Origin: Sphaerolaimus hirsutus
Lineage: Eukaryota; Nematoda; Chromadorea; Monhysterida; Sphaerolaimidae
DNA: 64,000 bases
Reading direction: 5' to 3'
Assembly: GCA_964036195.1 (NCBI GenBank)
Contig: OZ038452.1
Span: forward strand, 12,332,704 to 12,396,703
Shown one piece after another: positions 2,829 through 42,991 of the stretch. The notes beneath the pieces are model-generated. The model was not told where the DNA came from and ran no database searches. It saw only the letters and a list, made by a program, of their open reading frames with translations. Every line of letters begins with the position of its first letter. Positions within the stretch are counted from its first letter, which is position 1. The position numbers and the translations under genes were made by a program.

Positions 2829-3014
2829 GGTGCCAATCCTAGACCCTGTAAAGTACCCTGTAAAATGTCAATTGTCATGCAAAGTGCCTAAAGTCATGTA
2901 AAATGCCCGGTAAAATGGCAAACTTACATTTGCCATTTTACAGGGCATTTTCCATGACTTTAGACACTTTGCATTGCATTAGACATTTTACAGAGCAATT
3001 TATAGAGTGCCCCC
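2829..3014 (+). mobile_element. Introner-family copy N1
   Basis: It begins GGTGCCAATCCTAGACCCTG and ends near GAGTGCCCCCTGG, with the family's internal words TGTAAAATG, GTCATGCAAAGTG and a central hairpin turn. The usual acceptor CCCCCAG is CCCCCTG here. The following sequence (to about 3124) has an open frame, but I cannot connect it to other exons. Confidence 0.7.
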
Positions 3015-3143
3015 TGGGCGGACCCCAGCGACATTGTTGCATAGCGCCACTGCGATTGTTACCGGCCATCGGTCTGCGTATCAGCGGCGATTATATACAC
3101 GGCCAATGGATAACAATGAATTAATTATTCAAACTTAGCTCAT

Positions 3144-3404
3144 TTAGGCACTGGCAACTTGGCTGCGACAACCAGGGGGCACTCCCAGCCCCGGTAAAAA
3201 GACCCGTAAAATGTGAAATGTCATGCATGTGTTACGAGTCATGCAAAATGCCCTGCAAAATGGCAACCGAGTTGCCATTTTGCAGGGCATGTTCTATGAC
3301 TTTTGACATTTTACAGGGTCTGGGAATGGCACCAGCGCATCTGGCCGATTTCTGCAGCCGTCGCAAAGACGCTTCGTTATGTGCCGCCGTCTGATATCTG
3401 TCGG
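3144..3404 (-). CDS. Two-exon 3' end of an unidentified minus-strand gene, split by an introner
   Basis: Read on the minus strand, exon 3404-3333 follows a poly-C tract ending in CAG and encodes DRYQTAAHNEASLRRLQKSA followed by RCA. It ends in phase 1 at a G|GTGCC donor. The intron 3332-3182 is an introner in the same orientation as this gene. Splicing to AG at 3183-3182 restores the frame for a short last exon with a C-terminus of GCRSQVASA and a TAA at 3146-3144. The product is not recognised. Upstream exons should lie at higher coordinates but were not found. The phase agreement and stop are the evidence; the exon is short, so a chance open frame is possible. Confidence 0.4.
3182..3332 (-). 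mobile_element. Introner copy forming a minus-strand intron
   Basis: On the minus strand it runs from GTGCCATTCCCAGACCCTG to GGGCTGGGAG, with the family's hairpin words between. The conserved terminal acceptor has changed from CCCCCAG to CCCCCTG (3179-3173). The nearest AG is nine bases upstream and keeps the frame. Confidence 0.65.
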
Positions 3405-9776: not shown

Positions 9777-12700
9777 GTGAGTGCCTTATCAATTTTTAGG
9801 CACTCCCAGACCCTGTAAAATGCCCTGTAAAATGTAAAATGTCATGCAAAGTATCAAAAGTCATGTAAAATTCCCTGTAATTGGCAAACTACCGTTTACC
9901 ATTTTACAGTGCATTTTACATGACTTTTGACACTTTGCAAGACATTTTACATTTTACAGGGTCTGGGAGAAGAACCTGGTGACCATCACGCAAGTAGAGA
10001 AGTAAAAAAACGTTTTATTGCAGTGAGAAATAAGAATTTTAGAATTTTTGTAATTAAACTTTTTTAGAAGCGACAAGCTCAAAAACAGTTTGAAATTCAT
10101 TTAGATTTTAACATTTGGCAAGTTAACTGAACAGGTGTGAAGAAAAATGCCAGATGGTATATTCCGCGGACATCACACTTATGGATTAGCGTATGGAAAC
10201 CTACCATAACCCATCCGAATAATAAACCACAAATTATACAGATTTTTCACTGTACAAAACAACAAAAAGATGTGAATACACTGCGTACACATCATGTATT
10301 TATTTGCTGTCGTTGCCGTTGGATAATAATATTCTTATGTATTTTGTATAGTATCCCAGGGCCGTATCCAGGGGGGGGGCGGGGGGGCTGCAGCCCCCCC
10401 CCTCCCGGGGCGAGACCAAAAAGTGACCGGAAAATGCGACTTTTTCAACGTCAGCGTAAAAAATTTTGCGCGCAAGCGCGCATTCTTCGCCAGACATAAG
10501 GTATTATCATCGGATTTGCTCCATGTGGCCACAAATCGTTATAAATGCACTCAACGTTGTTTTTTTGCTGTTTTGTATCTATATTTACATACATATAAAG
10601 CATTCCATGGCGCTGACGTCAACGCCCATGGCGCCATGGCGTGGCACCTACTAATGGCGCCAGCGCCATGGCGCCATTCCGCCACTATGTAGCTAAAATT
10701 TTAGGGGGGCCCCCTCGCCGGCCTCCGTAAACAAGCAGCCCCCCCCCCCCGCTCAAAAATCCTGGATACGTTCCTGTAGTATCCTTTTCATACACATTGG
10801 GAGTTATTCAGGAGGGGGGAGTTATTCAAGGGGGGAGTTATTTTCCCTCACCTCGCCAACAGGGGGGAGTTATTCAAGATGGGAGTTATTCTAGGGGAGT
10901 CTTATTCGAGGATTTGCGGTACTACTGTATTTCATACTAATGGCCCAGGGACAGTCCCGCACCCTGTAAAATGGAAAGTCATGTCATGTAAAATGTCAAT
11001 TGGAAGAAAAGAACACATTTTTAGTGAATTTTTGACAATTTGCGTGACAATTAGCGTACCTATTTGTATAGCATTTTACATGACATTTGACACTTTACTT
11101 TTCAGATTACAGGGCGCGTGATCAGTATAAGGGTATAAGTATAAGTATAAAAAGTACAAAATATGTAGACACTCAGTACTGAAAATTATTTTTAATTTGG
11201 TCAAGTTTTTGAGAAAAACGGTCAGTGCTTGCCTGTTTCCTTTAAAAAAAACTTTCATTAACATGTAAAAACGAGTGAAGCAGAAACGCGAGCAGTATTG
11301 TTGAAATTACTGAACTTCCTTCAAAGCAGTATTTTTTACTCACCCCTGAGTACAGAAAATGTAAAATACTTGTAAATGTAAAATTGTGATGTATAATTGT
11401 AAAATGTAAAATTTGAAATGTATTATTGTAAAATTTAAAATGAAATTTTACCGATACTCATCCATGAGTACACGTGAGTAAAATACTTTTTTCCCGGGAA
11501 AATATCAAATCGAATACTTTCTTCCGCGGAAAATGTAAAAGCAAGTACTTTTAAGTAAGTAAAAGTAAAATATATATGTAAATGTATTTACCCAGTACTC
11601 ACGTGTATGAATTTATCAAGGGTAAATGTAAATAGATTTTCACAACTTTGAACATTTGAAATCGTTAATTTGAACACCAACAGCAACAGTTGCAAAAATC
11701 CAAAAACCATGCAGGAATTTGCGGCCATAAATGCGGCCATAGAAAAGTTCGCCATGTTGGATGGCGAAATCGATCAATTGTTGAATGTGGAACTGCCCAG
11801 CGGAGAGCACATTGGGAGATTGGAGGTCTGGAAAATAAATTTTTTTCTTCAAAATTCTACCTTTTTCTTGGAATAGCCGGTGGACATTAGTTCATGGCCA
11901 CCACCATGAGGTCTACACAGTGACACTTCCCTGACGTTTCCCGGCACTTCACGAAATTTGTTGTGAAGGCACTTCACATCGCAAATACAGTTCATTACTC
12001 AACACATTTGTAACGCCATGTAAAAACTGACGGCAGATACTAGTTGTCACCGGCAGAAATGGCGCGTCATTAGATCATAGGAGTAGAACGGCGTCAAATG
12101 TCATTCTGTCAATCCTTGCCACCTTTACAGGGTCTGGGCAGAATGTTGAATGATATCGAAGGCCAATCTGTGCCAGGAAACGAGGAGTTGCCCGGAAATG
12201 GGACAGTGGCGCTCCAGGTGTCAGTCCCAGACCCTGTAAAAAGCCCTGTAAAAAGCCCTGTAAAATGTCAAATGACATGCGAAGTGTCATAAGTCTTGTA
12301 AAATGCCCTGCAAAATGGCAAACACGTTTTACCGAGCATTTTACATGACTTTTGACACTTTGCATGACATTTTACATTTGACACGGCCTTTTACAGGTTC
12401 CGGGACTGCCCCCAGTTGAACGAAAGCCGCAACAAGTTGAAAAAGGCCACGGACAGCTTTAATGATTCACTGAAATTCATTAAGCTGTTTGACAAGTTTT
12501 GGGGCTTGTGCTTTCGAACGAATGAACTTCTCCATTCGTGCCAAAGGGTGAGTTCACTCGATGTTTTTAAAAGCATTAGGTATTTACTGGTTTTGCGGGT
12601 TATGGCCTATGGGTAACGAGGGGAAAAATTCGAAATTTGAAAGCGTTTTTGAATTTTTTGAACTTTTTGAATTTTTATTTCACCCCTTGAAAAGCACTAA

Positions 12701-15700: not shown

Positions 15701-16632
15701 AGCTGCGTGTGGACTCGATCGGGAACTGCGACACCTGGCTCAAAGACGACGTTCCCGGTGCCAGTCCCAGACCCTGTAAAATGGCAAATCTCAGCCAAAA
15801 AGTCTAAAGTCATGTAAAATGCCCTGCAAAATACCTGCATGTTCCATCACTTGAGACACTTTGCGTGACATTCGGCAATTTACAGTGCCCGGGACTGCCC
15901 CCAGGGGTTATTTCCAATTTGAAGGCGATCGTCGAAGAGGCCGAGAGTTTCGATCAAGGCTGCCTGCTGAAGGGCGTGTACGCCCGAGAAAAGATCAGAG
16001 CGGCGAGCGAAGCTTTGCAAGAATTGCAGGAGCACAGGCGCGAGGTGGCGCAGAATGTACACAGGTCGGCGTTGCGGGTATCGCTGCATTGTAAACTGCT
16101 TCCGCGTCAAGTTCGGCACCCATTTTTTTATTTTTCGAGTGCCGTAACTCCAGCTGTGCGCGAGATTTGTAGCTGAAACATGGGGGTTATATAGGCATAA
16201 CACTCCCCTTCTATACACCAACAGGGGGGGGGGGCTTCAGCGACTCACTACAGTGTGTGTCGCTGAACATGTAAAAAAATTTTTTCTATTTTTGCTGTCC
16301 GCCACAAGTTCAACACAAAATGGTACCCCCACTGCGGATGCCAAAACTCCAGCTGTGAAGGGTGTAAAATGCTCAAATTTTGGGGTGGTGTAGCCAACGC
16401 CGAACACCTCCCCCTACTATACAACATTGGGTGGGCAGCACTGACCCACTACAGTGTGGGTCGCCAAAGATCAAGGAAACATTTGACACAGTTTTTGTTT
16501 GCATCAAGTTCAGCACTGAAATTTGTCTTACAATTCACATCAAGTTCACATGCATGCATTAGTAGCCGGTAAAAAAATAGTCTGCGGCGATTGCTTAGAG
16601 CATTTGCAAAACAAAGATTTATCGAACACCCA

Positions 16633-16667
<35 letters not shown>

Positions 16668-19600
16668 ATTAAGAGACGCCCACATCTAAAAGTCAAAGCA
16701 AAATTTTGGAAATTGAGTTAAGTACGGAAACTTTGCTTGCTAGAATCGTTTCCGAATTAAGTGTCCATAAGGCATATTTGTCCGATCCGGGTACAAAAAT
16801 CTAGATTTTCACAAAGTAGTCCACTTGCTTACTGCATAGCTGAAAAAAGGCATAGCTTACTGAAAAAAGTTCAGTACTTTTAACAACTCTGCACACCACA
16901 CTGCGCCGCTGTGTTTTACGTATTTCTTTTGACAACTAAATAAGTATGTTTCCATTTCAGAGTGTCGGACTGCATCGAGAAAGTGCAAAAATGCGCGGCG
17001 ACTGTGAGCAGACGGCTGGTAGACATGGAAAAACTACCAGACCAATATGACGTGGAGCTGACCGCGCGCTATGTTGCCTGGCCCAGGTGCCACTCACAGA
17101 CCCTGTAAAGTGCCCTGTAAAATGTCAAATGTCAAGCCAAGGGTTCAAAAGTCATGTAAAATGCACTGCAAATTTGCAACGTACGTTTGCCATTTTGCCG
17201 GGCATTTTACATGATCTTTGACACTTTGCATGACATTTGACATTTTCCAGGGCTTTTTACAGGGCTGGGAGTGCCCCCAGGGCTCAAATCGAAGAGTTTT
17301 TGGAGCATTTGGGCAAATTATTTCGGGAATTAAATGAGATCGATGGGGATTTGGCGAAAGGCATGAAAGATGCCATTTTTCACTGGCAGCACCCCAAATT
17401 GGCCGACTTGTCTGCGAAATCGACCGAACTGCAAGAGCGACTGCATGTTCGTTGCATCTTAAGTTGAATTTTATTGTGCAGTGCGGAATCAAAGTGCCAA
17501 TTTGGCAAGTGGAGAGGTGACGTGAAATGTAATCAGTTATAAGTGGAGTTTTGACTGGTAAGTCAAATGGCAAGTGAGCCTTTATGTGACAACTAAATTT
17601 CTTAACAAATTACTTGCTAGTTACCGTATATCCTTGAATAAGACCCCTCTTGTATAACTCCTCCCCCTTGAATAACTCCTCCCTGTTGAATAACTCATAC
17701 GTGTTGAATAACTCGTCCCTCAAAAACTCTGGCGAAAAAATAAACCCCCATTGAGTAAACCCCCACACATGAATAACTCCCCCCTCTGTGATGAGTGGAA
17801 AAAATGTTGGGTCAAGTTTAAAAAAAACAATCAATGAAGTCAGACGGACAAAATAAGTTAGCCTGGGCTGCAAATGCAGTGCAGTGTGTGAAATGAAAAA
17901 TACAATACAATATTAGCCTACAGCAGCGACGACAGATACATAATCTTATTCTGAGGAAAAAAATCCCCCCCCCCCACTTGAATAACTCCCCCTCCTGACG
18001 AAAATATAACTTCCCGTTGGTCTTATTCGAGTATATACGTTATACGTTTGGGCATCAGTTCGCTTACCGCGCACTTGCCAGGTTTCTTGTTACTATTCCA
18101 CTTGAGGATTTGGCTCCAGTTGTCTCTCACATTGAAATTGAAAGTCGCTATCAATGCGCATACGAAACAACTAGTGATGACAAAGCGCCTTGGCGCAATC
18201 GCCCTCTGGCGCTTGGCGTTTCACCTGGGATATGCGTAGAGATGGAAAAGCGCCAAACAAAATGGTGCCAGGAACCAGATGACCCCAGCCCAGAGTAAAG
18301 GGCGCCAAGCGCCATTGCGTCTGGCGTTTTGTCCATCATTGCGTCAAAAGTGTGGCGCTTTGTCCATCACTAGTAGTAAGAATGGCTGAACGCGCAGTTC
18401 CACACGGCGGAGGCAAATGTGCTCATGTGCATGAACCAATCCGCCACGGTCAGAATTGACTCTGCCCACGAGGCGTTGCAGTCTTCGCAAAAAGTACTGA
18501 CCGATTTGGAAATAGTTATGGAAACAACCGACCGCGACGGTGCCACTCCCAGACCCTGTAAAGTGCCCTGTAAAATGTCAAATGTCATGCAAAGTGTAGA
18601 ATGTCATGTAAAATGCGCTGTAAAATTGCAACCGAGTTGTCATTTTGCAGGGCACTTTACACGACTCTAGACACTTTCCATGACATTTTACATTTTACAG
18701 GGCTCTTTACAGGGTCTGGGAGTACCCCCTGGTGTTGAATACATGATTAATAGGCTACCGGCGATTTTGGACCAGGAAAGTGATAAGTTGAAATTGAGCG
18801 CGTCGCAGTTGAAGGACTCCATCCGCATTTCACAAGACCGACTGGATGGCGAAGTTTTCCAGGTGAATTTAGCTTAACTTTGAATGTTTACATATGCTAC
18901 TTGTGAATTAAATAGTTGGCGCACTTTTTTACACATCGTATTTCGGGTTCATTTTTTCAGAGTGCCAAGTTTGAGGGGGGTTAATTCGAGGGAGGGGGTA
19001 CTTCAAAGGGGGTTTGTTTTTTTTGTCCGAATTTTTTGAACTCGAGTATACTTATACGTAGTTTGTAACGTATGCAGACGTAGAAAGATGCAACAAAAAC
19101 CGACATGTATAAGAATGTATTGACATAAGTACGCAGATGGCCCAGGCCATGTCCTAACATAACTCACTCATTATTTTACTGCTGTTTTTTGGCAATTACA
19201 TTATCTTTATACTGCTTTTCGGCGGTAATAATTACGAGGGGGGTATTTCAGGGGGTTATTTCTAGGGGTAGTATTTCAAGAAAATACGGTAACCATGGTG
19301 TTGGCAGACAAAATTTTAATTATTTGAAAATAAATGAAATTTCGAATGTTCGTCTGAAATGGTCAAATAGTTCAAGACTAGAATTTTTTGATAAACAATT
19401 GAAATCAAATTTTCAAATCTAATCAACTGAGAACTAAAACTTTGAAAAAACTTCCGAACTTTAAATATGCTTTCAATGTTCAGAAAATGCAGAATCTAGA
19501 GTAAAAATAGAAATGTGTGAATTTTTGAATCATTTGTAGTAAATTCGGAAAAAAATGTTTAACTTTTTGGTGAAAATTTCAATATTCGATAAATTCACTT

Positions 19601-22600
19601 TGCAGATAAATTCAAACTCAAACCAAACATGGTTTTAAGAGAATTTCAATCATTAATAAATGCTCGTGTCGCAGAATTTGACCAAATGTCTCGAGAAAAT
19701 CAAACAGAGGCAATTGGAATTGTCTGCCGCCCGCGACGCAGCTAAGAGATACTGCGAAAGTTACCAGGTAAATTATCCTGGGGGCACACCCAAACCCTAT
19801 CAAATGCCCTGTAAAATGTCAAATGTCACACAAAAAGTCAAAAGCCATGAAAAATGCCCTGCAAAATGGCAAAAGTACGTTTGCCATATTGCAATTTGCA
19901 GCGCATTTGACATTTTGCAGGGTCTGGGTCCTGGGAGTGTCACCAGCCGTAGTTCCGAGCTGTTTTCAAATATTTTGTATTTATATTATACATTAAGTTT
20001 ATACGTAATATTAAGTATATTACATATTATCTTTTGAGAATAATTTGGGATTTCCAGATTGTAAAATTTTTTAGAATACCGGAAATCCTCGAATAAGTCC
20101 GCCTTTGAATGACTTCAAATTGAAAGAAAAATTCTTTGATTCATCGGAATCCATTTCACCAGCCCCAAAATGTCACATAATCAAATACTAATCGTATGCA
20201 TTTGTATGCACCATGGCGCTTTTGGCGCTCGGCACTATCTTGTTGTGGCGCCATTGGCGCTTGGCGCTACTGATGCCACAAGCGCCATGACGCTTTTTAC
20301 ATCACTAGTTATAACAGCAATTAATGTATTTTATGAAAAATCTCAAAATTATTCAAGGAGGGAATTATTCAAGGGGGATCATTGTTTCCTACTCAACTAA
20401 CGGGGGGGCTATTCAAGTGGTGCATTATTCCAGGGGGGAGACAATCATTCGAGCAAATTCAAACTACACTACTATTCGAATACACTAATAAAATCTTCAA
20501 TTTTTTTCTGCCAAACATAAACCACGCATGCAAAATGAATGCGAACTATTGCTTGCAGGCGTCTACGGACGTTGAGGCGGCGCAATCGGCCACGGAGCAG
20601 ACGGGCACAACTCAGACCGTTCGTGTGCTGGTTTTTTGACACATTTTAATTTCTTTGAATGAATGTGGGAAATGAATGTGTAAATGGGAATTACCGTATT
20701 TCCTCGAAATACCCCCTCAAAAAGGACACTGAGTTTATAACCCCCCCCCCTCCCCCAAGTAAAGTGTAAATACAACATACACTCCGGGAAAAATGTCTTT
20801 ATGTTCCTGGCCAGGAACAAAAAATCAATGTCTCCCCAATTAACATGCGACCTGTGTCGGGATATACATGGGATGAATTCACGTAGATTAGGGTGCCTTT
20901 ATGCCACATGTCGAATTTTAGCTTTCTAGGGTCTTTGCTGCTCGTTTGACGGTCATCCAAAGTCAAATTTCCGGTAGTAAAAACTTCTCACTGTTTGTGT
21001 GAAAACATTATAACAAAGAAAAAATATGTTAAAATGATGAATAAGACCTGCATGCAACTCCTTTTCATTGATTTAACGTGTTTTTACTTTGTTATAATGT
21101 TTTCACAAAAACGGTGAAAAATTTTTGCTACCGGAAGTTTGACTTTGGATTGCCGTCAAACGAGCAGCAAAGCACCTAGAAAGCTAAAAATCGAAATATG
21201 GCATAAAGGCACCCTAATCCACGAGAATTCATGCCATTTTTTATCCCGACACAGGTCGCACGTTAATTGGGGAGACAATGATTTTTTTTGTTCCTTGCCA
21301 GGAACAGAGACATTTTTCCCGGAGTGTATATGACAAAAGCAGCGGCTTGTTATGTGATCCGGGCAATGCATAACACACGTCAAAAACAATAACTGTGTCA
21401 CGTTAGAACAGAGTTTATACCATCTTCATACATATATAAGGCTATAGACTCTTATTATACATGACCGTTTTTGTTGCATTATTCTACGTTTGTATACGTT
21501 ACAAACAGCAATTTAGTACTACGATTGCAAAAAAAAATTTGCCGCAATAGTAACCCTCCCTCGAAATACCCCCCACGTTTAATCCCCCCTCAAAATTTCC
21601 ACTATGAAAGAATAGAGGTGGGGTATTTCGAGGAAATACGGTAATTGTATTGGTATTGACTTGTTTTTTAGATCAGAAATGGACGACCGTATTTCCTCGA
21701 AAACAGACCCCATGAAACCCCCCCCTCGAAATTAGTGTAAATAGAACGTAATTGCCATGCAAGAGCTGCAGTTTGTGATCCGTGTAATGCGGAACACATG
21801 TTAAAACAATGACTGTGTGACGAACATGCTTATGCCATCTTTACTCATATAAGTCTATAAACTCTTATACATGGTAGTTATTGCTGCATTTAACTACGTC
21901 TGCGTAAGTTACAAACACTGGGTATTCAAGAAAGATCTGTCTAAAAAATCACCCCCCCCCCTCGAAATGTCGTTTAAAAAAAAAATTTACATCATGAAAA
22001 AATTAACCCCCTGGGGGTATTTCGAGGAAATACGGTACATTTATGCGCAGATAATTTTTATATACCCCCGCATCCTGTAAATTAGGAGTCCACTCTATAC
22101 AACTCCAAAATTACGAAAATTGAGATTTGTACGGAAACGTAGACACATTTTCCATGATTTTCCACATTTTTATGGAATGGCCAAATACTCGGGCATAGAC
22201 ATCCAGACGCCCTTGAATCGTTCCCTTAGTTCAAAATCGGATGAAAGAAATCATTATCATGCTGCCAGTAGTGATGTTAAAGGCACCAGGAAAAATGGCA
22301 CCGCACCGCACCGGCACCTTTGCCAACGCATGAAAAGGGCACCTGGCACCCTGGGGCACCGGCCAGAAAATGGCACCGCACCGCACCGGCACCGGTGCCT
22401 TTTGGAAAAAATGGCACCGGCACCGAAGGGCACCGGCGGGTTGCCGGTGCTAGCACCGAAAGGCACCGCACCGGGCTGGAATTTCTGAGGTAAATATCGG
22501 GCAGTTTCTCAGTGGTTCACCTTTGGAAGTGCATATTTCCATGAATTTTCAACCGATTTTGATGGTTGAGCACTTAAAATGATCAGAATGATGTGGCAAT

Positions 22601-25600
22601 CACTTTTATGAAGCAATTACAATGATTACAAATGAAAGATAAAATATTTAATTTACTACAATGTCCATAGCCACTATTGTCTACTGATCGGAGTCGTTGC
22701 TGTACAGAGAATGGAACTATCTCTGTCATAAACTGACAACAAATTTTGAACAAAAAAGTAAGATAAATACAGGGGTGGGCATCTTCAGTTACCGCTGGAA
22801 AAACGCGATAGCTTGAGCTACAGTTGAGCTATCACAATGAAATTTTAACACAATAGAGTAGACTCCATAGGACACCTATGCTGAAGTTTGCAACCCAAAC
22901 GGCCACAGTTTGGAGGAGTTGTGGAACACACAGCAATGGCACCGCACCAGCACCGGTGCTGGTGACCTTCGGTGCCCAGCACCGGGGCACCGGTGCCCCG
23001 GTGCCTTTACATCACTAGCTGCCAGTCCCAGATCCTGTCATATGTCATGCAAAGAGTCAAAAGTCATGTTAAAATGTCCCTGAAAGTGGCAAATGTCGGC
23101 ATATCGCATTAAGGGGGCACTCCCAGACCCTGTAAAATGCCCTGTAAAAGGTCAAATGTCTTTGCCGTTGATGGTTTGGGGTGCACGCACGGTGATTTTT
23201 CACACGCACACAGCATTCCGAATTTTTCAGGATGCCGCTCGGCAGTTGGAAGCGGCTAACTCGAAGTTGGCTCAACTAGCCAGCGAAGTGGATGACACTG
23301 TGAATGTGAGCCGACCATGCTGCGACGAGATTGCGCACCGCATTAGAAGGATCCAGGTTTGTGCCATAATGGCCCCGCACGCGCTAGTTGACATCGACAC
23401 CAAATGTCAACTGGTTCACAGCCGAATTCAAGGCTTGCATTCGAACGTCGTTCGTCGGCTCGTGAGCAAGCTTTATATTGGGATGGGAACCAGTTGACAT
23501 TTGCGGTGTCGATGTCAACTAGCGTGGCCCTATGTGCTCTCTTTTATTTTTGTTAATTTATTTTCGGATTGGAGACTGGAGAGTTGTCCTATTTTTTGGT
23601 AGTTTTAACTGCAATTGCATCGTGTTCAGAGACATAAAGCGATGTTCACTATTCCGATATTTCGGCAGCACATTTTTGAGGTGTCGTGTTCAAGGGGATT
23701 ATTATTTCCACAGAAATTTTATGAAATTCATTTACCTATCTATGCATTATTTGTATTTCCTTTTGTTTTTAGCGTACTCAGATCAGAAGTCCGAAGTAAA
23801 AGAAATCAACAATAGCAGGGATGTATAAGCGCGTTAATTCGGGGTGGGGGGGTTAATTCGATGGAGTTTCTCGAGGAAATACGGTATACAAACGTGCTTG
23901 CCACCTTGCAGGAGCTGCGTGCGCTCGTCCAGGACATCGGGAACAAATGGCCCGCTGCCACCAACTTGGCAATGACCCAGGGCAAATTGGGCCGGGCCCG
24001 GCGTCAACTGGAAAATTCATTACAGTTCGCCGAGGGCTGGGTTCAGTTTGAAAATGACGCCGCCAAGGATAAGGATACCCTGGCCAAAATAGAAGAGCGT
24101 GTCAGTTACTTTTCGTTTTGATTTTTTTCGATCGGTTGCTTATATTTACCGGTTTGCAGTTTTTAAACAATATAGGTAGGGAAACTATAAATCAGGTGCC
24201 AAATCATCCCGTAGGCCTTAAAATGGCGCCAACATGGTCTCAACGTGAAATTTTCCGAAACAGTAAAATAAATAAGTGTAAAGTAAAAAGTGTAAACACT
24301 TTGCTGGGTAAATCTTTACATTTCCTGGGATTCAATTTTCCTGACCCGTTTGCTTTCTATTGTTGAGGCTTGTGATGGAATGTCGCCAGGGTGCTGATGC
24401 GATTTTTATGTGGCACTCTTGGCGCCTGTAGCGCAGTCCCGAAATAGCGCCAGAATGGCGCCAACACGGTATTATGGTGAGGTCATCGAAAAAACTAAAA
24501 CGTAAAGAAATGCACGTCAAAAAATCGTCTTTCGGCTGAAAAATCGCGATATTGTCAATCTGACATAATAATCAGAATCTGCTGTTTTTGACTGTAACCG
24601 TGGCACCATTTTTCTGTGGTGTTGTTTGTCGCGCTTCTGGCGCTTTTCATCACACGTTGAGACTAGGTAGTGACTTTATTTCTCCATAAAAAGCCACAAA
24701 TATGGCATGAATATGACAGTTTTTGTCAACTTCCACCCGCCCAAACGACAGGTGGAGCGCTGCGATGGCGACCTGCCGCAGCGGCTGCAGCGCCTGGAGG
24801 CCATCGTGAGCAGGGCGGAGGGACTTGGCCCACTGCCAGCCGGCCTACGCGCAGCGGACACCTGCGCCAACATGCACGCCGTGGTGGCCGGGCTGAAGGG
24901 AAAGCGCGACCAGCTGGCGAAGAATTTTAGCCTGTTTGTCCCGCTGCCATTTTGGTGGATTTCTGCAAGCCTGGTGTTACTCCAATACACTGTAAAGTGA
25001 CCTGTAGAATGTCAAATGTCATGCGAAGTGCCTAAAGTCATGTAAAATACCCTGCAAAATGGCAAACATGTTTGATTACTCAACGTTTGCATTTTGCATG
25101 ACTTTTCACACGACATTTGACATTTGACACTTGACAGGGTGCGGGACTGCCACCTGCCTACCTTACGTTCTAATTGGGTGTGTATTGTACATGTAAATTT
25201 GCATTTCAGCAAGCTGGGGGCCAGCGATCAGGGTCAGAACGCGGCCGGCCCGGAACCCATGGAAATTGATGAGGGGCCGTCGGGCACGTTGTCGGGCACG
25301 CCCGCCGCCCAGTCCCAATCCCGCCGCCGCAAGCGCCCCACACAGGACACCGCCCAGGACCACATTGAGAAGGTGCCTTTGATGCCTTTTACAAGCGATT
25401 ATTGACATGTATTGGCAAATTAGTTTACCTACCAACTGCCATATTTTCTCGAAATAACCCCTGGAATTACCCCCTTCGAAATACCACCAGGTCTGAACGA
25501 GCTTAGCTAAAAATACCCCCCTCGAAGTACCCCCCGTCTGGAATAAAGGAGCTCTTATATGCAACGTACACGAGTGATAACTTGCTGCCAATTTGCATCG

Positions 25601-40600: not shown

Positions 40601-42991
40601 CCTAGCACCACTCCATAAAAATGGCAATATTTTGGTGCCCCTAGCACCACTCCATAAAAATGTTCACAAGTGGAGTTATTCAAATAAAAAGTCATGTGGA
40701 GATAACGAGTTTCGGGTGCAAAGTCACCTGCAGATAACGAGTTTCGGGTGCAAAGTCACCTGCAGATAACGAGTTTCGGGTGCAAAGTCACCTGCAGATA
40801 ACGAGTTTCGGATGCAAATTCATAAAAACCAGTACAGATTTCCTTAACGAGTTTCGGATGCAAACTCCATTTTTGTATGGTGATTTTGACACCTCCATAC
40901 TAAATCCTTAACGAGTTTCGGATGCAAACTTTTTTCTCTGCAGATAACGAGTTTCGGGTGCAAAAAATGATAGTTTTTTTTGTAGATAACGGGTTTCGAG
41001 TGCAAACTCGCCTATTATGGGCTGCAGATAACGGGTTTCGGATGCAAACTTGCATTTTTTTCAGAAAACGCTATCTCTGTATCTCGGGAACGGTATGAGA
41101 TATTGAGAAAATTTTTTTTCTATCACGAAGAAATATATATATATACGTCAGATCTGCACTTAACTCAATTTTTTTCACTTTTGCACTTAACGGGTTACGG
41201 AACCAAACTCCTCATTTACGTTTACTCTGAAATATGCGTAAACCTGCATACTGAGTAAATACTCATAGGTAAACCCCTGCTCACCTCTCTTACAACCCTT
41301 CAAATATTTTCAAGAGAATCTAAAAAACTCGTGAATGGGGCAACTTTCATGGCCAATTTTGGTATACAGTTGTAGGGCAAATCATGCCCTACAAGTGTAT
41401 GCCCAACTTAGCCATGAAAGTTGCCCATTCACGAGTTTTTAAGTTTCTCTTGAAAAATTTTGAAGGGTTGTAAGAGAGGTGAGCAGGGGTTTACACTACT
41501 TTATATGTACAAGTACCCATCTGTATGCATACTTTTCATGATTACTGGGTACTTCTGAGTATTTCATAGTTAGGTATGCACTGAAAACATGGGCACATAT
41601 AGGTACATGAAATGCGTCAATACATAGAAATGTACTGGATAAATATTCGATTGTTCTATAATTCTGTAGTTGTATTCAAAACTTCTGGGCTGACATAGTT
41701 TCGCAGAAAACTCGCGAAATACATGCTGCATGTACAAACACAGGCTAATAACGACCTGTTCGCGTCGCTGCCAGCCGCGGCTGCGATCACGCCGGCACAC
41801 ATGGAGCAGCAGTGCGCGCAGTGGAGCGCCAGCGTGCAGCAGCTCCTGCAGCGGTGCCACGTGCCCTGGGCGCAGCTGAGCCGGCACGCCAGCTGGAGCG
41901 CCATTTTGGACGGCGCGCTTTTGGACGGCCTGGCCAATCTGCTCAACGAAGTCGCCATTAAGGTGCTCTTTCAGTAACTGTCTTTCAGAGGCTTTAATCC
42001 TAAATACCGTATTTGCTTGAAAAGTTCCCCCCTTGAATAATTCCCCCCTCGAATAATCACCCCCCCCCCTCTGTAAGACGAGTGAGGAAATAATAATTCC
42101 CCCCTCGAATAATCTCCCCTTTAAAGATTTGCGTAATTTGTTATACCTAATTTGGCACGTTATACCTATTTAAGGCTGGCACATTTTACGTCAATCGCCC
42201 CCCCCCCCCCCACGTGACTGCAGATCGGCGCAAACTGGGCGGCCACTGTGAGGCGCCAAATTTACGACAGATTTGCTGTGGCGCGCGGCTCCAGGCCCCA
42301 GCTGGTGCCACTCACAGACCCTGTAAAGTGCCCTGTAAAATGTAAAATGTCATGCAAAGTGTCTAAAGTCATGCAAAATGTGCTGCAAAATGGCAAACGT
42401 ACGTTTGCCATTTTGCAGGGCATTTTGCATGACTTTAGACACTCTGCATGACATTTTCCATCTTCCAGGGCACTTTACAGGGTCCGGGACTGCCCTCAGG
42501 GCAAAATGGTCAACACGCGTCTGGCCGTGCTGCGCGCGCCCCAGGGGCCGGCAGCCGGCGCACCCGACGAGCCAGCGGCGCAGCCATTGGAAGGGCCCGA
42601 TGCGCAGGTTCTGGTCGCCCAGCTGGCCGAGCCCTTGCCACCGGCGCCGCAGCTGCCGCCGCAAGTGGCTGAGCGGCGAGTGACGCGCCAGTTGGTCAGG
42701 CAGCACCAGGACGACGAGCACATCCAGGTGCTGATCCCGGACCCGGTAAAGAGCCCTGTAAAATGTCAAATGTCATGCAAAGTGTCAAAAGTCATGTAAA
42801 ATGCCTTGCAAAATGGCAAATGTACGTTTGTTATTTCGCAGGGCATTTTCCATGACTTTAGACACTTTGTGTGACATTAGCCATTTTACGGGGCACTTTA
42901 CAGGGTCTGGGACTGCCCCCAGGACTGGTTGCAACTCAGTGTGAACGATATGTGCAGGCAGACGGCCCAGTTGACCTCGCTCAGACGCTAG
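9699..42991 (+). CDS. Main gene: unidentified helical/coiled-coil protein, about 22 exons, 3' end complete
   Basis: Exons, judged by GT-AG sites and phase continuity, are 9699-9776, 9970-9993 (tentative), 11715-11825, 12131-12217, 12416-12547, 15667-15757, 15905-16064, 16961-17086, 17281-17446, 18398-18539, 18723-18862, 19675-19767, 20559-20618, 23231-23356, 23912-24100, 24752-24973, 25214-25372, 31260-31442, 41744-41962, 42224-42304, 42500-42727 and 42923-42991 (TAG). The sum is 2,886 nt, or 961 residues. The first two thirds are charged, heptad-like helices (for example KLFRELNEIDGDLAKG and LQELQEHRREVAQNVHR), reminiscent of spectrin-type or other bundle scaffolds. The last third has an acidic PMEIDEG patch, a basic SRRRKRP patch (possible nuclear signal), Pro/Gln-rich stretches and a helical DWLQLSVNDMCRQ end. 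No catalytic motif or membrane segment is seen. The 5' end and promoter lie outside or were not found. Reality of the gene: high; family: unknown. Confidence 0.8.
9799..9969. mobile_element. Introner-family copy in an intron
   Basis: GGCACTCCCAGACCCTG at the left and GGGTCTGGGAG at the right enclose the family's inverted TGTAAAATG words. It starts 22 bases after the preceding donor and ends exactly where a 24-nt candidate exon begins. Confidence 0.85.
9970..9993 (+). CDS. Candidate 24-nt micro-exon
   Basis: It encodes KNLVTITQ, between the GGGAG end of the introner copy and a GTAGAG donor. It is phase 0 on both sides, so including or skipping it keeps the gene in frame. Read further, the frame hits TAA after three more codons (9994-10002), so it needs the donor to be used. 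Confidence 0.3.
10357..10776. mobile_element. hAT-like MITE, CAGGG(A/C)CGTA ends, 8-bp TSD
   Basis: The ends CAGGGCCGTATCCAGG and CCTGGATACGTTCCTG are flanked by TAGTATCC (10349-10356 and 10777-10784). Inside are G/C homopolymers, TTTTGCGCGCAAGCGCGCA, and a block of GGCGCC/CCATGG words. Same family as 48970-49413 and 3829-4215. Confidence 0.92.
10795..10925. repeat. Right-end fragment of the ACCGTATTTCC family
   Basis: Four copies of a GGGAGTTATTC word precede GAGGATTTGCGGT, the diverged right terminus of this family. The left half is absent. Confidence 0.55.
10946..11121. repeat. Diverged introner-family copy
   Basis: AGTCCCGCACCCTGTAAAAT at the left and ATTTGACACTTTAC plus ATTACAGGGCGCGTG at the right resemble the family ends and words, with much decay. 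Confidence 0.5.
11125..11640. repeat. AGTAC / GTAAAATAC word region
   Basis: GTAAAAT-type and GAGTAC-type words fill 11340-11610 in both orientations. This resembles the arms of the element at 52259-52783. Definite termini are not seen. Confidence 0.45.
11715..11825 (+). CDS. Main gene exon: helical segment
   Basis: 37 codons, phase 0 to 0, acceptor ATGCAG and donor GTCTGG. It encodes EFAAINAAIEKFAMLDGEID and QLLNVELPSGEHIGRLE, an amphipathic helix followed by a turn. Confidence 0.7.
12131..12217 (+). CDS. Main gene exon with introner-like first bases
   Basis: 29 codons, phase 0 to 0. The boundary reads TTTACAG|GGTCTGGG, identical to the inner terminal repeat of the introners, so the first codons (GLG) may be exonised transposon sequence. 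The exon continues RMLNDIEGQSVPGNEELPGN and ends at a donor supplied by the next introner. Confidence 0.7.
12218..12415 (+). mobile_element. Introner forming an entire intron (I1)
   Basis: A 198-nt hairpin starts GTGTCAGTCCCAGACCCTG and ends CGGGACTGCCCCCAG. The flanking codons read VALQ|LNESR without loss or gain, so splicing restores the frame exactly. Confidence 0.9.
12416..12547 (+). CDS. Main gene exon
   Basis: 44 codons, phase 0 to 0: LNESRNKLKKATDSFNDSLK then FIKLFDKFWGLCFRTNELLH and SCQR, followed by a consensus GTGAGT donor. Strongly helical. Confidence 0.8.
12719..13055. mobile_element. Palindromic MITE, PIF/Harbinger-like
   Basis: The ends AGCTGTGTTT and AAACGCAGCT sit next to TTA/TAA. 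Inner inverted arms match well, for example GATAAATCGTCCA with TGGACGATTTATC, and CTCACTAGTTAA with its complement. Three-bp TTA/TAA targets are typical of PIF/Harbinger. A similar end sequence occurs at 30492-30953. Confidence 0.7.
13219..14364. mobile_element. hAT-like MITE with ACACAGAAACTC word arms, 8-bp TSD
   Basis: The ends CAACGATGG and CCCATCGTTG are flanked by GCTGTAAT (13211-13218 and 14365-14372). The left arm is built of ACACAGAAACTCA words and the right arm of AAAACTCAAAAAACTCGAG words. The centre hosts an ACCGTATTTCC-family insertion (13587-13905). Confidence 0.88.
13587..13905. mobile_element. ACCGTATTTCC-family element nested in a MITE
   Basis: It runs from TTATTACCTCAAATTAACCC to GGTATTTCGAGGTAATATGG, with the family's C-rich and G-rich subterminal blocks and a centre containing TGTACATCATGTATCCAATG. 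Confidence 0.65.
14587..15048. mobile_element. hAT-like MITE of the GGTCTC / AGACCCCTG family
   Basis: The left end CATCGGTCTC and right end GGAGACCCCTG are flanked by GATGATGC and GACGATGC (7 of 8 identical). ATAGATAG words occur in the subterminal regions. Copies: 46999-48300 and 54744-56364. Confidence 0.8.
15054..15380. repeat. GGCGC-word repeats with CATCACTA/TAGTGATG motifs
   Basis: GGCGCTTTCCAATCACTAG (about 15192-15210) and TAGTGATGTAAAAGCGCC (about 15298) are ends of the TAGTGATG family seen complete at 22269-23017. The copies here are fragmentary. Confidence 0.5.
15381..15666. other. No feature recognised
   Basis: AT-rich intron sequence leading to the next exon. The acceptor lacks a clear pyrimidine tract. 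Confidence 0.4.
15667..15757 (+). CDS. Main gene exon
   Basis: Phase 0 start after AAACGCAG, phase 1 end at G|GTGCC. It encodes AVRHAGDTERTELRVDSIGN and CDTWLKDDVP. Confidence 0.7.
15758..15904 (+). mobile_element. Introner forming an entire intron (I2)
   Basis: A 147-nt shorter copy from GTGCCAGTCCCAGACCCTG to CGGGACTGCCCCCAG. Splicing joins CCC G|GG GTT in frame (P-G-V). Confidence 0.88.
15905..16064 (+). CDS. Main gene exon: coiled coil
   Basis: It reads VISNLKAIVEEAESFDQGCL, then AREKIRAASEALQELQEH and RREVAQNVH, ending in phase 2 at ACAG|GTCGGC. The long Glu/Ala/Leu/Arg helix is the clearest coiled-coil candidate in the gene. Confidence 0.85.
16150..16520. repeat. GGGTCGCC-family units in an intron
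   Basis: CTCCAGCTGTG occurs twice about 195 bases apart, each time followed by a C-rich block and CACTACAGTGTGGGTCGCC or a variant. This is the same layout as 1-1253 and 48776-48969. Confidence 0.55.
16635..16664. repeat. (AT)n microsatellite
   Basis: About 15 uninterrupted AT units. The rest of 16520-16960 shows nothing recognisable. Confidence 0.95.
16961..17086 (+). CDS. Main gene exon
   Basis: It follows a good TTTCCATTTCAG acceptor. Phase 2 to phase 2: VSDCIEKVQKCAATVSRRLV, then DMEKLPDQYDVELTARYVAW, ending CCCAG|GTGCC. Confidence 0.85.
17087..17280 (+). mobile_element. Introner forming an entire intron (I3)
   Basis: A 194-nt hairpin from GTGCCACTCACAGACCCTG to CTGGGAGTGCCCCCAG. Splicing joins CCC AG|G GCT (P-R-A) in frame. 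Confidence 0.92.
17281..17446 (+). CDS. Main gene exon: coiled coil
   Basis: It encodes AQIEEFLEHLGKLFRELNEI and continues DGDLAKGMKDAIFHWQ to ELQERLH. The end is taken at CAT|GTTCGT (phase 0). Alternative donors within 20 bases cannot be excluded. Confidence 0.75.
17633..18040. mobile_element. ACCGTATTTCC-family element
   Basis: It runs from ACCGTATATCCTTGAATAAG to CTTATTCGAGTATATACGT, with subterminal GAATAACTCC/CCCC words. This family, with a usual end of ACCGTATTTCCTCGAAATAC and C/G-rich subterminal words, is the most frequent in the window. Confidence 0.7.
18172..18372. mobile_element. MITE with TAGTGATG ends and GGCGC words
   Basis: The ends TAGTGATGACAAAGCGCC and GGCGCTTTGTCCATCACTA are inverted. 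The interior alternates GGCGCTTGGCG and GGCGCCAAGCGCC words. It ends 25 bases before the next exon. No target-site duplication is seen. Confidence 0.7.
18398..18539 (+). CDS. Main gene exon
   Basis: Start after GCGCAG (phase 0). Encodes FHTAEANVLMCMNQSATVRI, then DSAHEALQSSQKVLTDLEIV and METTDRD, ending in phase 1 at G|GTGCC. The start could lie 17 bases upstream (AAG, phase 1) if the previous exon is longer. Confidence 0.75.
18540..18722 (+). mobile_element. Introner intron with mutated acceptor (I4)
   Basis: It starts GTGCCACTCCCAGACCCTG. The family acceptor CCCCCAG is CCCCCTG here (18725-18731). The nearest AG is in GGGAG (18721-18722), nine bases upstream. Using it keeps the frame and adds three introner-derived residues, V-P-P. 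Confidence 0.85.
18723..18862 (+). CDS. Main gene exon with introner-derived first codons
   Basis: Phase 1 start. After V-P-P it reads GVEYMINRLPAILDQESDKL, KLSASQLKDSIRISQDRLDG and EVFQ, ending in phase 0 at CAG|GTGAAT. Confidence 0.8.
18965..19292. repeat. ACCGTATTTCC-family remnant
   Basis: GGTTAATTCGAGGGAGGGGG and the right end ATTTCAAGAAAATACGGT are visible. The left terminus is unclear. Confidence 0.5.
19675..19767 (+). CDS. Main gene exon
   Basis: 31 codons, phase 0 to 0: NLTKCLEKIKQRQLELSAAR, then DAAKRYCESYQ. Acceptor TCGCAG, donor GTAAAT. Confidence 0.8.
19777..19947 (-). mobile_element. Introner-family copy, reverse orientation
   Basis: It begins GGGGGCACACCCAAACCC, which is the acceptor-type end, and finishes GGGAGTGTCACCAG. 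It lies ten bases after a donor, inside a longer intron. Confidence 0.75.
20082..20460. mobile_element. ACCGTATTTCC-family copy carrying a GGCGC-word insertion
   Basis: The outer sequence reads CCGGAAATCCTCGAATAAGT on the left and GGGGGGAGACAATCATTCGAG on the right. Within it, about 20208-20307 is a GGCGC/CCATGG-word segment ending TTTTTACATCACTA, the end of the TAGTGATG family. Confidence 0.55.
20559..20618 (+). CDS. Main gene exon
   Basis: Phase 0 start after GCTTGCAG; ASTDVEAAQSATEQTGTTQT. The donor may be GTTCGT at 20619. GTGTGC at 20625 or GTTTTT at 20631 would add V-R or V-R-V-L and stay in frame. Confidence 0.65.
20693..21642. mobile_element. ACCGTATTTCC-family element with nested palindrome
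   Basis: It starts ACCGTATTTCCTCGAAATAC and ends TTTCGAGGAAATACGGT. AATT is present on both sides. The element at 20780-21326 is inserted in its left half. Confidence 0.75.
20780..21326. mobile_element. Long palindromic MITE with TA target
   Basis: CACTCCGGGAAAAATGTC at the left and its reverse complement ending CCCGGAGTG at the right, with TA on each side. The two 260-bp arms match nearly throughout, for example GGGTGCCTTTATGCCA and ATTATAACAAAG with their complements. TA targets suggest Tc1/mariner-like mobilisation. Confidence 0.8.
21686..22036. mobile_element. ACCGTATTTCC-family element
   Basis: It runs from ACCGTATTTCCTCGAAAACA to TTTCGAGGAAATACGGT. Its centre (AACAATGACTGTGTGACG, CTCATATAAG) is the reference used here to recognise interrupted copies elsewhere. 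Confidence 0.75.
22269..23017. mobile_element. hAT-like MITE with GGCACC word arms, 8-bp TSD
   Basis: The ends TAGTGATGTTAAAGGCACC and GGTGCCTTTACATCACTA are flanked by GCTGCCAG (22261-22268 and 23018-23025). The arms are arrays of GGCACCGCACCGGCACC words. The centre (22490-22930) is unique. Confidence 0.93.
23018..23163. repeat. Two truncated introner-family copies
   Basis: CTGCCAGTCCCAGATCCTG starts one, and GGGGGCACTCCCAGACCCTG (from about 23113) starts another. Both break off after about 55-80 bases. The preceding MITE is inserted in the terminal repeat of the first. Confidence 0.7.
23231..23356 (+). CDS. Main gene exon
   Basis: 42 codons, phase 0 to 0. Acceptor TTTTTCAG, donor GTTTGT. 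DAARQLEAANSKLAQLASEV, then DDTVNVSRPCCDEIAHRIRR and IQ. Helical, with a CC pair. Confidence 0.85.
23371..23530. mobile_element. Small inverted-repeat element
   Basis: Arms of about 45 bases: CTAGTTGACATCGACACC and GTGTCGATGTCAACTAG, extending to GGCCC... and GTGGCCC ends. It lies 14 bases after the donor of the preceding exon. Confidence 0.75.
23836..23887. repeat. ACCGTATTTCC-family right-end fragment
   Basis: It ends TTTCTCGAGGAAATACGGT only 24 bases before an exon, so it supplies part of the acceptor-side intron. Confidence 0.65.
23912..24100 (+). CDS. Main gene exon: coiled coil
   Basis: 63 codons, phase 0 to 0. Acceptor CACCTTGCAG, donor GTCAGT. ELRALVQDIGNKWPAATNLA, then GKLGRARRQLENSLQFAEGW and KDKDTLAKIEER. 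Confidence 0.88.
24370..24655. mobile_element. hAT-like MITE, TTGTGATGG ends, near-perfect 8-bp TSD
   Basis: The ends TTGTGATGG and TTCATCACAC are flanked by GTTGAGGC and GTTGAGAC (7 of 8 identical). GGCGC words place it in the TAGTGATG group. Confidence 0.65.
24752..24973 (+). CDS. Main gene exon
   Basis: 74 codons. VERCDGDLPQRLQRLEAIVS, RAEGLGPLPAGLRAADTCAN and MHAVVAGLKGKRDQLAKNFS are clearly coding. The last 14 residues (LFVPLPFWWISASL) are unlike the rest. The chosen donor G|GTGTTACTCC matches the introner start. An alternative donor, G|GTGGAT at 24955, would end in phase 2. Confidence 0.75.
24974..25155 (+). mobile_element. Decayed introner at the start of an intron
   Basis: GTGTTACTCCAATACACTG and GTGCGGGACTGCCACCTG are diverged forms of the two ends, with the family words between. 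The terminal acceptor has been lost (CACCTG). The acceptor now used lies about 55 bases further on. Confidence 0.75.
25214..25372 (+). CDS. Main gene exon: acidic and basic patches
   Basis: Tandem acceptors CAG|CAAG| at 25209 and 25213. The second keeps phase 0. LGASDQGQNAAGPEPMEIDE, GPSGTLSGTPAAQSQSRRRK and RPTQDTAQDHIEK. The SRRRKRP cluster after an acidic stretch could be a nuclear localisation signal (inference). Donor GTGCCT. Confidence 0.82.
25438..25600. repeat. ACCGTATTTCC-family fragment
   Basis: ATATTTTCTCGAAATAACCC, then TTCGAAATACCACC and CTCGAAGTACCCCCC. Left half only. Confidence 0.6.
25620..26220. mobile_element. TAGGGTTGG-family copy
   Basis: It starts TAGGGTTGGAAAAAAA and keeps the core GGAGTCATGGGATAGCA and the decayed CACGCTTGCGCGCAAA motif. 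The right terminus is degraded. Confidence 0.65.
26221..26447. other. No feature recognised
   Basis: Intron sequence without a visible element. Confidence 0.35.
26448..26640. repeat. 30-bp minisatellite, left block
   Basis: GAGTTTATGGGAGTT and TTAGGGGCTGAG-type words in degenerate tandem. The same unit is cleaner at 28770-29165. Confidence 0.7.
26640..28770. repeat. About 117-bp satellite, some 17 units
   Basis: Each unit contains GACACTACATTACCATAACC, then AATGAACCCC, CTTTCAATTTGTGAAATGAT and TTTCTGATTGCACTGATTT. The spacing of the first motif is mostly 114-120. Five further units are at 59790-60330. Confidence 0.92.
28770..29165. repeat. 30-bp minisatellite (GGGCTGAGTTTATGGGAGTT)
   Basis: About 13 units of a 30-base word, so frames stay open and give artefactual repeats such as GVSKLGAEF. 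Confidence 0.92.
29165..29700. repeat. 30-bp G-rich minisatellite
   Basis: Units of GGGGTGCCATTTTTGGGGGG plus TCCCCA recur about 18 times. Strong strand asymmetry in G could favour G-quadruplex folding (inference). The long frames here are by-products. Confidence 0.9.
29721..30195. mobile_element. Segment bounded by two inverted Helitron-like 3' ends
   Basis: The left edge is the reverse complement of the right edge over about 55 bases: GCAGGATTCTCTCC and TTGTGGTTCTCTACAATTAA mirror the CTAG terminus. The left copy has a slightly changed hairpin and reads CTAT instead of CTAG. Confidence 0.7.
30345..30432. repeat. ACCGTATTTCC-family fragment
   Basis: It ends GGTATTTCGATGAAATACGGT. The left part is missing. 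Confidence 0.6.
30492..30953. mobile_element. PIF/Harbinger-like MITE, TTA target
   Basis: The ends GGCAGCGTTTACACGG and CGTGTAAACGCTGCC are flanked by TTA (30489-30491 and 30954-30956). The inner parts are also inverted (TTTTTGTCGTCAC and its complement). A central palindrome, TACACGGCCTCGCTAACGAG, follows. It is inserted within decayed introner-like sequence. Confidence 0.82.
31260..31442 (+). CDS. Main gene exon: Pro/Gln-rich
   Basis: 61 codons, phase 0 to 0, acceptor CGAACGCAG. RRHTSLEGVASPLEAMPSGV, DSPLLTSPVVDAPPHQQQHE, QRQPPLDNDQRRDWMLERLQ and L. Donor GTTGGT. Confidence 0.85.
31464..31622 (+). mobile_element. Decayed introner at the start of a 10.3-kb intron
   Basis: CCACTCCCATACCCTGTAAA and the inverted words to TTTTACAGGGCATTTGTAAA are recognisable 21 bases after the donor. 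The 3' terminus has degenerated. Confidence 0.65.
31980..34775. repeat. 39-bp minisatellite, left arm
   Basis: About 70 units of GGGGCACCAAAATAGTGCCA plus TTTTTATGGAGTGGTGCTA. Blocks of 467 and 503 bp repeat (for example from 33190, 33657 and 34160), showing higher-order duplication. Confidence 0.97.
34776..35365. other. Spacer between inverted minisatellite arms
   Basis: Non-repetitive AT-rich DNA. At 35140-35215 TTTTACAGTGATTTTTCTGA and similar words suggest decayed introner sequence. No gene. Confidence 0.5.
35366..40665. repeat. 39-bp minisatellite, right arm (inverted), with 1,703-codon open frame
   Basis: About 135 units, the reverse complement of the left arm. Because 39 is divisible by three and the unit lacks stops, 35390-40501 is open with a 13-residue repeat NGTILVPLAPLHK. 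The opposite strand is also open over long stretches. A 2,379-bp block (61 units) is duplicated in tandem, for example 35818 onward equals 38197 onward. I judge the frame non-genic. Confidence 0.95.
40685..41060. repeat. GATAACGAGTTTCGGGTGCA short tandem words
   Basis: About eight degenerate units spaced 33-60 bases apart. Inverted counterparts are at 31660-31980. Confidence 0.85.
41275..41500. mobile_element. Palindromic element
   Basis: AACCCCTGCTCACCTCTCTT and its complement at about 41476-41497, plus CAACTTTCATGGC and GCCATGAAAGTTG, form two arms of about 95 bases. It sits inside GTAC/TACTC word sequence (41216-41600). Confidence 0.8.
41744..41962 (+). CDS. Main gene exon
   Basis: 73 codons, phase 0 to 0. 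ANNDLFASLPAAAAITPAHM, then CAQWSASVQQLLQRCHVPWA and ILDGALLDGLANLLNEVAIK. GC-rich and helical with three Trp. Confidence 0.9.
42006..42215. repeat. ACCGTATTTGC-type element fragment
   Basis: ACCGTATTTGCTTGAAAAGT, then CCCCTTGAATAATTCCCCCC words. Its C-runs provide the pyrimidine tract of the next acceptor. Confidence 0.65.
42224..42304 (+). CDS. Main gene exon
   Basis: 27 codons, phase 0 to 0, after CCCCCCCACGTGACTGCAG. IGANWAATVRRQIYDRFAVA then RGSRPQL. The donor is the introner's own GTGCCA. Confidence 0.85.
42305..42499 (+). mobile_element. Introner forming an entire intron (I5)
   Basis: A 195-nt near-perfect hairpin from GTGCCACTCACAGACCCTG to CGGGACTGCCCTCAG, turning at CGTACG. The join is Q-L|G-K in frame. 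Confidence 0.93.
42500..42727 (+). CDS. Main gene exon: Pro/Ala-rich
   Basis: 76 codons, phase 0 to 0. GKMVNTRLAVLRAPQGPAAG, APDEPAAQPLEGPDAQVLVA, LAEPLPPAPQLPPQVAERRV and RQLVRQHQDDEHIQ. Confidence 0.88.
42728..42922 (+). mobile_element. Introner forming an entire intron (I6)
   Basis: 195 nt from GTGCTGATCCCGGACCCGG to CTGGGACTGCCCCCAG. The left end has several substitutions relative to I5 but keeps GT. Confidence 0.92.
42923..42991 (+). CDS. Main gene last exon and stop
   Basis: DWLQLSVNDMCRQTAQLTSL, then RR and TAG at 42989-42991. The frame carries over from the upstream exon without a gap. Confidence 0.88.
   Translation, partial: DWLQLSVNDMCRQTAQLTSLRR

Follow-up and report, generated by a model that had tools for sequence, protein, structure and literature searches.

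A palindromic transposon family with CWG target-site duplications as a probable source of introns in the nematode Sphaerolaimus hirsutus

Introduction

Introners that bring one splice site with them and take the other from a target-site duplication (TSD) have already been described (PMC9860276). As presented in the available part of that source, the TSD of the Chrysochromulina example is 4 bp long and terminal inverted repeats (TIRs) are lacking, and in the Symbiodinium example the donor comes from the TSD. NuwaI is a group within the PIF/Harbinger-like (PHIS) superfamily of transposons that has been reported from animals, and its elements are characterized, in the accessible text, by CWG duplications and by TIRs that usually start with GGG (PMC4482050). 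Intron ends other than GT and AG are known as well. More than 90% of the introns of the tunicate Fritillaria borealis are non-GT/AG, according to the accessible section of the report (PMC13326754). Human TG acceptors, in the portion of the source that is available, are always accompanied by an AG acceptor within 28 nt and are never the sole acceptor (PMC2374985).

The window considered here is the whole stretch of 64,000 nucleotides from contig OZ038452.1 of Sphaerolaimus hirsutus. A sequence-only reading of the window had proposed that copies of one hairpin element form at least five introns of a single gene and supply both of their splice sites. In the present analysis, the element is followed through the window and the 348-Mb assembly, and its ends, its targets and the genes that carry it are described.

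Copies of the element in the window

The six stretches singled out by the sequence-only reading are copies of one palindromic element of ~192 nt. All six were recovered where they had been placed by a model search of the window; the same copies trained the element model, and their own high scores are by construction. All six lie on the forward strand. In the copy at 12218..12415, the GT is at 12218, the element extends to 12412, and a duplicated CAG occupies 12413-12415, with CAG also before the copy. CAG likewise stands before and at the end of the copies at 17087..17280 and 42728..42922, while the copy at 42305..42499 is preceded by CTG and closed by CAG. The copy at 15758..15904, shortened to 147 nt, follows CCG and ends in CAG. 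The last copy had been listed as 18540-18722 with a shifted end; it occupies 18540..18731, has ACG before it and ends CCCCCTG and not CAG, the final three bases being 18729-18731. If the AG at 18721-18722 served as the end instead, the frame would be kept and 3 residues added. The proposed start, GTG(C/T)C...TCCC, does not fit copies 17087 and 42305, which start GTGCCACTCAC; copy 42728 starts GTGCT.

Matches outside the training set were obtained with the same model. Copies with an altered right end lie at 2830..3028 on the forward strand (E 2e-48, CTG before) and at 9795..9975 on the reverse strand (8.5e-46), and a forward-strand copy at 24974..25156 has CTG on both sides (7.4e-37). Two further copies are reverse-oriented, namely 3173..3335 (7.3e-35, CTG on both sides) and 19778..19946 (1.6e-29, in its own orientation CTG before and CAG at the end), and weaker matches are also present. 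Because an open forward-strand frame and a donor-like CAG/GTAAAT site lie immediately upstream of the copy at 19778..19946, it was placed by eye as probably lying in an ordinary intron.

Removal of the element leaves frames of 101-159 aa across all six junctions, with 240 nt of flank taken on each side, which confirms the earlier observation that removal joins the flanking codons in frame. Downstream of copy 42728, the frame stops after 22 codons. A Pfam search of the assembled exon pieces of the window gave no family above its cut-off, and a protein search with the exons at 12-20 kb gave no homolog at E<=10 among 4,181 candidates. Since the exons of the window have no recognised relatives, the claim of five introns in one gene is not established. 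The two groups of introner-bearing exons are separated by a long tandem-repeat region at 31700-41000, in which several frames are open (e.g., 1,713 codons at 35360-40498). Stretches resembling CCCCTTGAATAACTCCCCC also recur in the window, for example at 17640-17800 and 42010-42120, and apparently represent another repeat family.

The family in the genome

When copy 42305 was used as a query, 3,566 first-look candidates were found in the 348-Mb assembly. Forty of these were scored, and all 40, the query itself aside, match at 85-91% identity; a genome search of this kind had been suggested as a check of the original proposal, and it bears out the family. The family is large: in the assembly, 2,767 places have an exact 26-nt 5′ end next to a preceding CNG, and 1,187 have an exact 26-nt 3′ end closed by CNG, two totals that are not directly comparable because the patterns differ in strictness. 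The reversed control patterns of both ends occur at 0 places. From 34 copies with lengths of 180-200 nt, a palindromic consensus of 192 nt was obtained, which starts GTGCCAATCCCAGACCCTG and ends CAGGGTCTGGGACTGCCCC. Divergence from a leave-one-out consensus is 3.6-11.1% in 32 of the 34 copies, and 37 and 40% in the other two. A 200-kb block picked independently of the element contains, with fragments counted, 40 stretches at E<=1e-5 that do not overlap one another. The genome-wide sample of copies read at the level of letters is small.

Copies are also found outside exons and in reverse orientation, and one copy (L065/L066) has ATGCAAC in place of GTGCCA at its 5′ end. The C1 block (L031-L050) contains related elements in which both ends read GTGCC, e.g., at 133230-133370; their flanks, AAAACACCAG..CTGGTGTT, resemble a longer target motif of Harbinger elements. 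In the same block (L037-L038, ~64.9-72.5 kb), consecutive open frames look like a Polinton/Maverick-type element. Two similar TSP_1 genes ~34 kb apart (L018 and L022, places 3637890 and 3603254) have the element in the same place, and the insertion therefore seems to predate their duplication.

Target-site duplication and element ends

In 54 asymmetric copies, comprising 44 and 10 copies from two sets, the three bases that precede GTG were compared with the three that close the intron; the tandem-duplicated locus L018/L022 is counted twice. Excluded from 106 hits were 58 with more than two mismatches at the ends and 4 that were symmetric or unclassified. The pairs were assigned by hand, allowing length differences of 1-2 nt at the 3′ end, and are distributed as follows: CAG/CAG in 25 copies, CTG/CTG in 9, CTG/CAG in 7, CAG/CTG in 0 and other pairs in 13. 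For the four CWG classes, a Fisher test yields 3.3e-5, and the difference of 7 to 0 between the two mixed classes gives p 0.016; the 13 copies with other pairs count against a simple CWG rule. A separate set of places leads to the same pairing. The 51 nt at the expected 5′ end were read for the first 20 of 447 places with CTG-ended 3′ ends; a GTGCC 5′ end was readable in 10 of them (7 by script, 3 by eye) and in none of the other 10, and CTG precedes it in all 10. Among 27 copies with an exact CWG on both sides, C comes before in 14 and G after in 18, which places the target close to CCWGG.

The element is flanked by a 3-bp CWG target-site duplication. The sequence-only reading had seen no such duplication, and within the six original copies alone it is indeed hard to see: three are CAG/CAG, and the others are CTG/CAG (42305), CCG/CAG (15758) and ACG/CTG (18540). 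The donor GT is formed by the first two bases of the element, and the acceptor AG, where present, lies inside the duplicated CAG. The pairing of the trinucleotides therefore assigns the GT to the element and the AG to the target, and the idea that both splice sites come from the element is not supported. As one copy of the duplication sits in the removed stretch, excision gives back the pre-insertion sequence.

Transposon type and candidate mobiliser

The right end of the element is GGGGCAGTCCC and the left end GTGCCAnTCCC, as compared with the NuwaI TIR starting GGG; the 5′-CWG-3′ duplication of NuwaI is found here as well. The CWG duplication and the GGG-starting end resemble those of a PIF/Harbinger-like (NuwaI-type) transposon, and by this analogy a transposase of that type may have mobilised the family. 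The genome contains at least 163 matches to PF13359 transposases, with 150 of 306 candidates scored. Many of these have almost equal scores, which suggests a recent burst of a PIF/Harbinger-type transposon. The PF13359 match length is 633 nt for 147 model positions, 192 nt more than these account for, and a transposase that itself carries the introner was considered on this ground. This candidate was rejected, as the one copy read (L071, a 691-nt piece) has two ordinary-looking introns and no significant match to the element model.

Conserved genes carrying the element

An open frame that crosses the junction is weak proof of coding, given that both arms reach at least 40 aa in 72% of 25 genome copies vs 54% of 192 GC-rich control CWG positions. 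Alignment to known proteins places the element within conserved coding sequence. After removal of the element, the conceptual products of cytoplasmic dynein heavy chain 1 and of Na/Ca exchanger 1 (NCX1), both with an AG end, align without a gap across the junction over 88 residues each, and that of xanthine dehydrogenase, with a TG end, over 75 residues. Pfam matches over their cut-offs span the junction for DHC_N1, VWA, TSP_1, MoCoBD_2, Peptidase_M13_N and Myb; VWA, TSP_1 and Myb are among those at AG-ended copies. Matches that end at the junction (Ion_trans, Peptidase_S9) or begin there (LRR) were excluded from this count. The TG-ended copy in an M13 peptidase has a Pfam value of 4.9e-11, with a structure alignment that is gapped near the junction, and the TG-ended copy in an NHL repeat has an E of 0.0075, under the curated cut-off of that family. 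Overall, a family at E<=0.01 was found in 7/10 and 5/10 of two sets making up 20 spliced products. ABCD1 (L026) was set aside as only a hint, with its upstream part translated in the wrong frame and a 3′ end of CCCCCG/G. A GT..GG copy (L051/L052) with the 3′ end CGG lies in a frame that looks zinc-finger-like when the motif is read by eye.

These copies, which fit the frame exactly and interrupt conserved genes outside the window, support the introner reading first made in the window, though not the splice-site origin given with it. Introners are recognised as similar introns at many gene positions, with similarity reaching both splice sites, and this is the pattern found here. The sequence evidence supports the family as an introner, i.e., a DNA-transposon-derived intron, whose splicing is predicted.

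Predicted hairpin

Near-complete hairpins had been described for all copies, and this holds for four of the six, with arms of 71-92 nt that are 83-90% complementary; the longest, in copy 42305, are 92 nt and 90% complementary. Copy 17087 forms two shorter arm pairs of 44 and 42 nt, and in the 147-nt copy 15758 no hairpin arms were found. The arms had also been called word-built; internal repeats of 12 and 19 nt do exist, and they are given no separate role. The predicted fold of copy 42305 has an energy of -133.8 kcal/mol (z -21.1), matched by 0 of 200 shuffles. When 43 copies were folded with 40 nt of flank, the 138 internal AGs of the right half had a median unpaired probability of 0.0, with 18% over 0.5; for the terminal dinucleotide the median was 0.4, with 35% of copies over 0.5. 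The predicted fold conceals decoy AGs well, and the true end is only partly exposed in it.

TG-ended copies

The combination GT..TG is frequent among copies in CTG targets, and three TG-ended copies lie in recognisable protein domains. At least 447 TG-ended copies are present, a total that mixes exonic and other copies. The first 100 of the 1,187 3′ ends, in which exonic and other copies are likewise mixed, comprise 62 CAG, 36 CTG, 1 CGG and 1 CCG (62 vs 36, p 0.011). An AG lies 17-21 nt upstream of the end in all 32 full-length copies and, by eye, in 9 of 10 further ends, i.e., in 41 of 42 overall, at ~19 nt; the exception (L063/L064) is TG-ended. The presence of this inner AG near all but one end, together with the pairing of human TG with AG acceptors, is the basis for proposing that the AG ~19 nt upstream may license the use of TG.

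Two readings of the TG-ended copies have to be weighed. The chances are about even that they are not spliced at TG, either because another AG is used at the cost of a changed protein, or because the copies are retained, polymorphic or disabling, so that only CAG-ended copies are introns. In line with this, human TG acceptors are reported, in the available part of the source, only next to an AG acceptor (PMC2374985). Other splice options exist for several copies: in copies L005 and 18540, both TG-ended, a GT..AG alternative 9 nt upstream keeps the frame and adds 3 residues, the NHL gene has an in-frame GT..AG option that removes 5 residues, and options with a GC donor were found for L025, L026 and L028. 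In the M13 gene, the nearest alternatives use GC donors and add residues. The excess of CTG/CAG over CAG/CTG is also as would be expected if selection favoured AG. Against this stands the xanthine dehydrogenase gene, in which no frame-keeping pair of a GT or GC donor within -30..+30 and an AG acceptor within -90..+45 was found. The frequency of TG among the 3′ ends points the same way, as does the median divergence from the consensus, which is 6.4% for TG-ended (n=7) and 6.8% for CAG-ended copies (n=18), so that the former are not simply the newest. The other reading is that CTG insertions give working GT..TG introns, in which the conserved inner AG, mostly paired in the hairpin stem, would license the first step and the hairpin would present the terminal TG for the joining of exons; it is held tentatively and leans slightly towards doubt. 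If it is true, the AG rule has been broken through the target preference of a transposon.

Proposed route and alternative origins

The observations are best accounted for by insertion of a miniature transposon at CWG, an explanation to which a probability of roughly 0.86 is given as a whole, with splicing, TG use and the mobiliser as its presumed parts. The element would be a non-autonomous DNA transposon with TIRs (MITE) of ~192 nt, of the form GTGCCAnTCCC...GGGAnTGCCCC. Its insertion at CWG, often CCWGG, would duplicate 3 bp, turning ..CWG.. into ..CWG/GTGCC...GCCCC CWG/... In the pre-mRNA, the first two bases of the element would serve as the donor GT and the CCCC of the right TIR as the pyrimidine run, and in a CAG target the duplication would furnish the acceptor CAG. 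Removal from GT to WG would restore the pre-insertion coding sequence exactly, whatever the reading phase, while the long palindromic hairpin would bring the intron ends close and pair most internal AGs. In a CTG target, the 3′ copy may have mutated to CAG, or the TG end may remain and be used, licensed by the AG ~19 nt upstream; the inner AG would then act in the first step of splicing, and exons would be joined at the terminal WG. The donor itself could have been created by one base change in a GGG end (GGG to GTG), with the order of events surmised.

Two other origins have been considered. Ordinary old introns might later have been hit by a MITE, and the family does occur in non-coding DNA, probably including an ordinary intron (19778-19946); this origin is nevertheless highly improbable, because in dynein heavy chain 1, NCX1 and xanthine dehydrogenase the whole gap between the aligned protein halves is the element. 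The exact termination of genic copies at splice sites would also suit a spread through RNA and reverse splicing of the kind put forward for the introners of fungi. However, RNA-propagated fungal introners have no TIR, no TSD and a strong restriction to genes, whereas the family here has TIRs and the CWG duplication, includes copies outside exons or reversed, and has relatives with GTGCC at both ends, which leaves very little room for such a spread. Insertion of a MITE at CWG points to a specific path by which a transposon could become an intron, with the GGG-to-GTG donor, the CCCC pyrimidine run and the acceptor from a CAG target. The copies in CTG targets form a natural set of acceptor variants, some of them in conserved genes, by which the AG rule can be tested through RNA.

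Comparison with known systems

Among the titles and abstracts listed in searches of a collection that covers a minority of the subscription journals, none reports a CWG-target or Harbinger-type introner family or TG-ended introners. Within that scope, and as far as it goes, what is new is the family itself, the rule for its targets and the TG-ended class that is predicted. An apparent animal family retains its target site, its ends and its conserved host genes in one assembly.

Like the introners of Chrysochromulina and Symbiodinium, the family is non-autonomous and DNA-transposon-like, takes one site from the TSD and leaves the length of the mRNA unchanged; in contrast to those introners as the available text presents them, it has a 3-bp CWG duplication, a full palindrome and TG-ended copies (PMC9860276). 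With NuwaI it shares 5′-CWG-3′ duplications and an animal host. One of its ends starts with GGG and the other with GTG, and the accessible part of the NuwaI report does not present those elements as introns (PMC4482050). The introner elements of Amoebophrya likewise show inverted repeats able to fold into a hairpin that joins the exon ends, direct repeats of 3-5 nt at the boundaries and non-canonical ends. Amoebophrya is a dinoflagellate, and its inverted repeats are not family-specific in the text available; the present copies belong to a single family whose ends and target are both fixed (PMC7789003). Compared with Fritillaria borealis, a single family is involved here, with GT donors in all readable copies but one and an acceptor with A or T. 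A parallel for the TG ends is provided by human TG acceptors, which also have an AG close by, as do 41 of the 42 copies checked here; unlike the human acceptors, as far as the available source describes them, the TG in xanthine dehydrogenase appears to be the sole frame-restoring end (PMC2374985).
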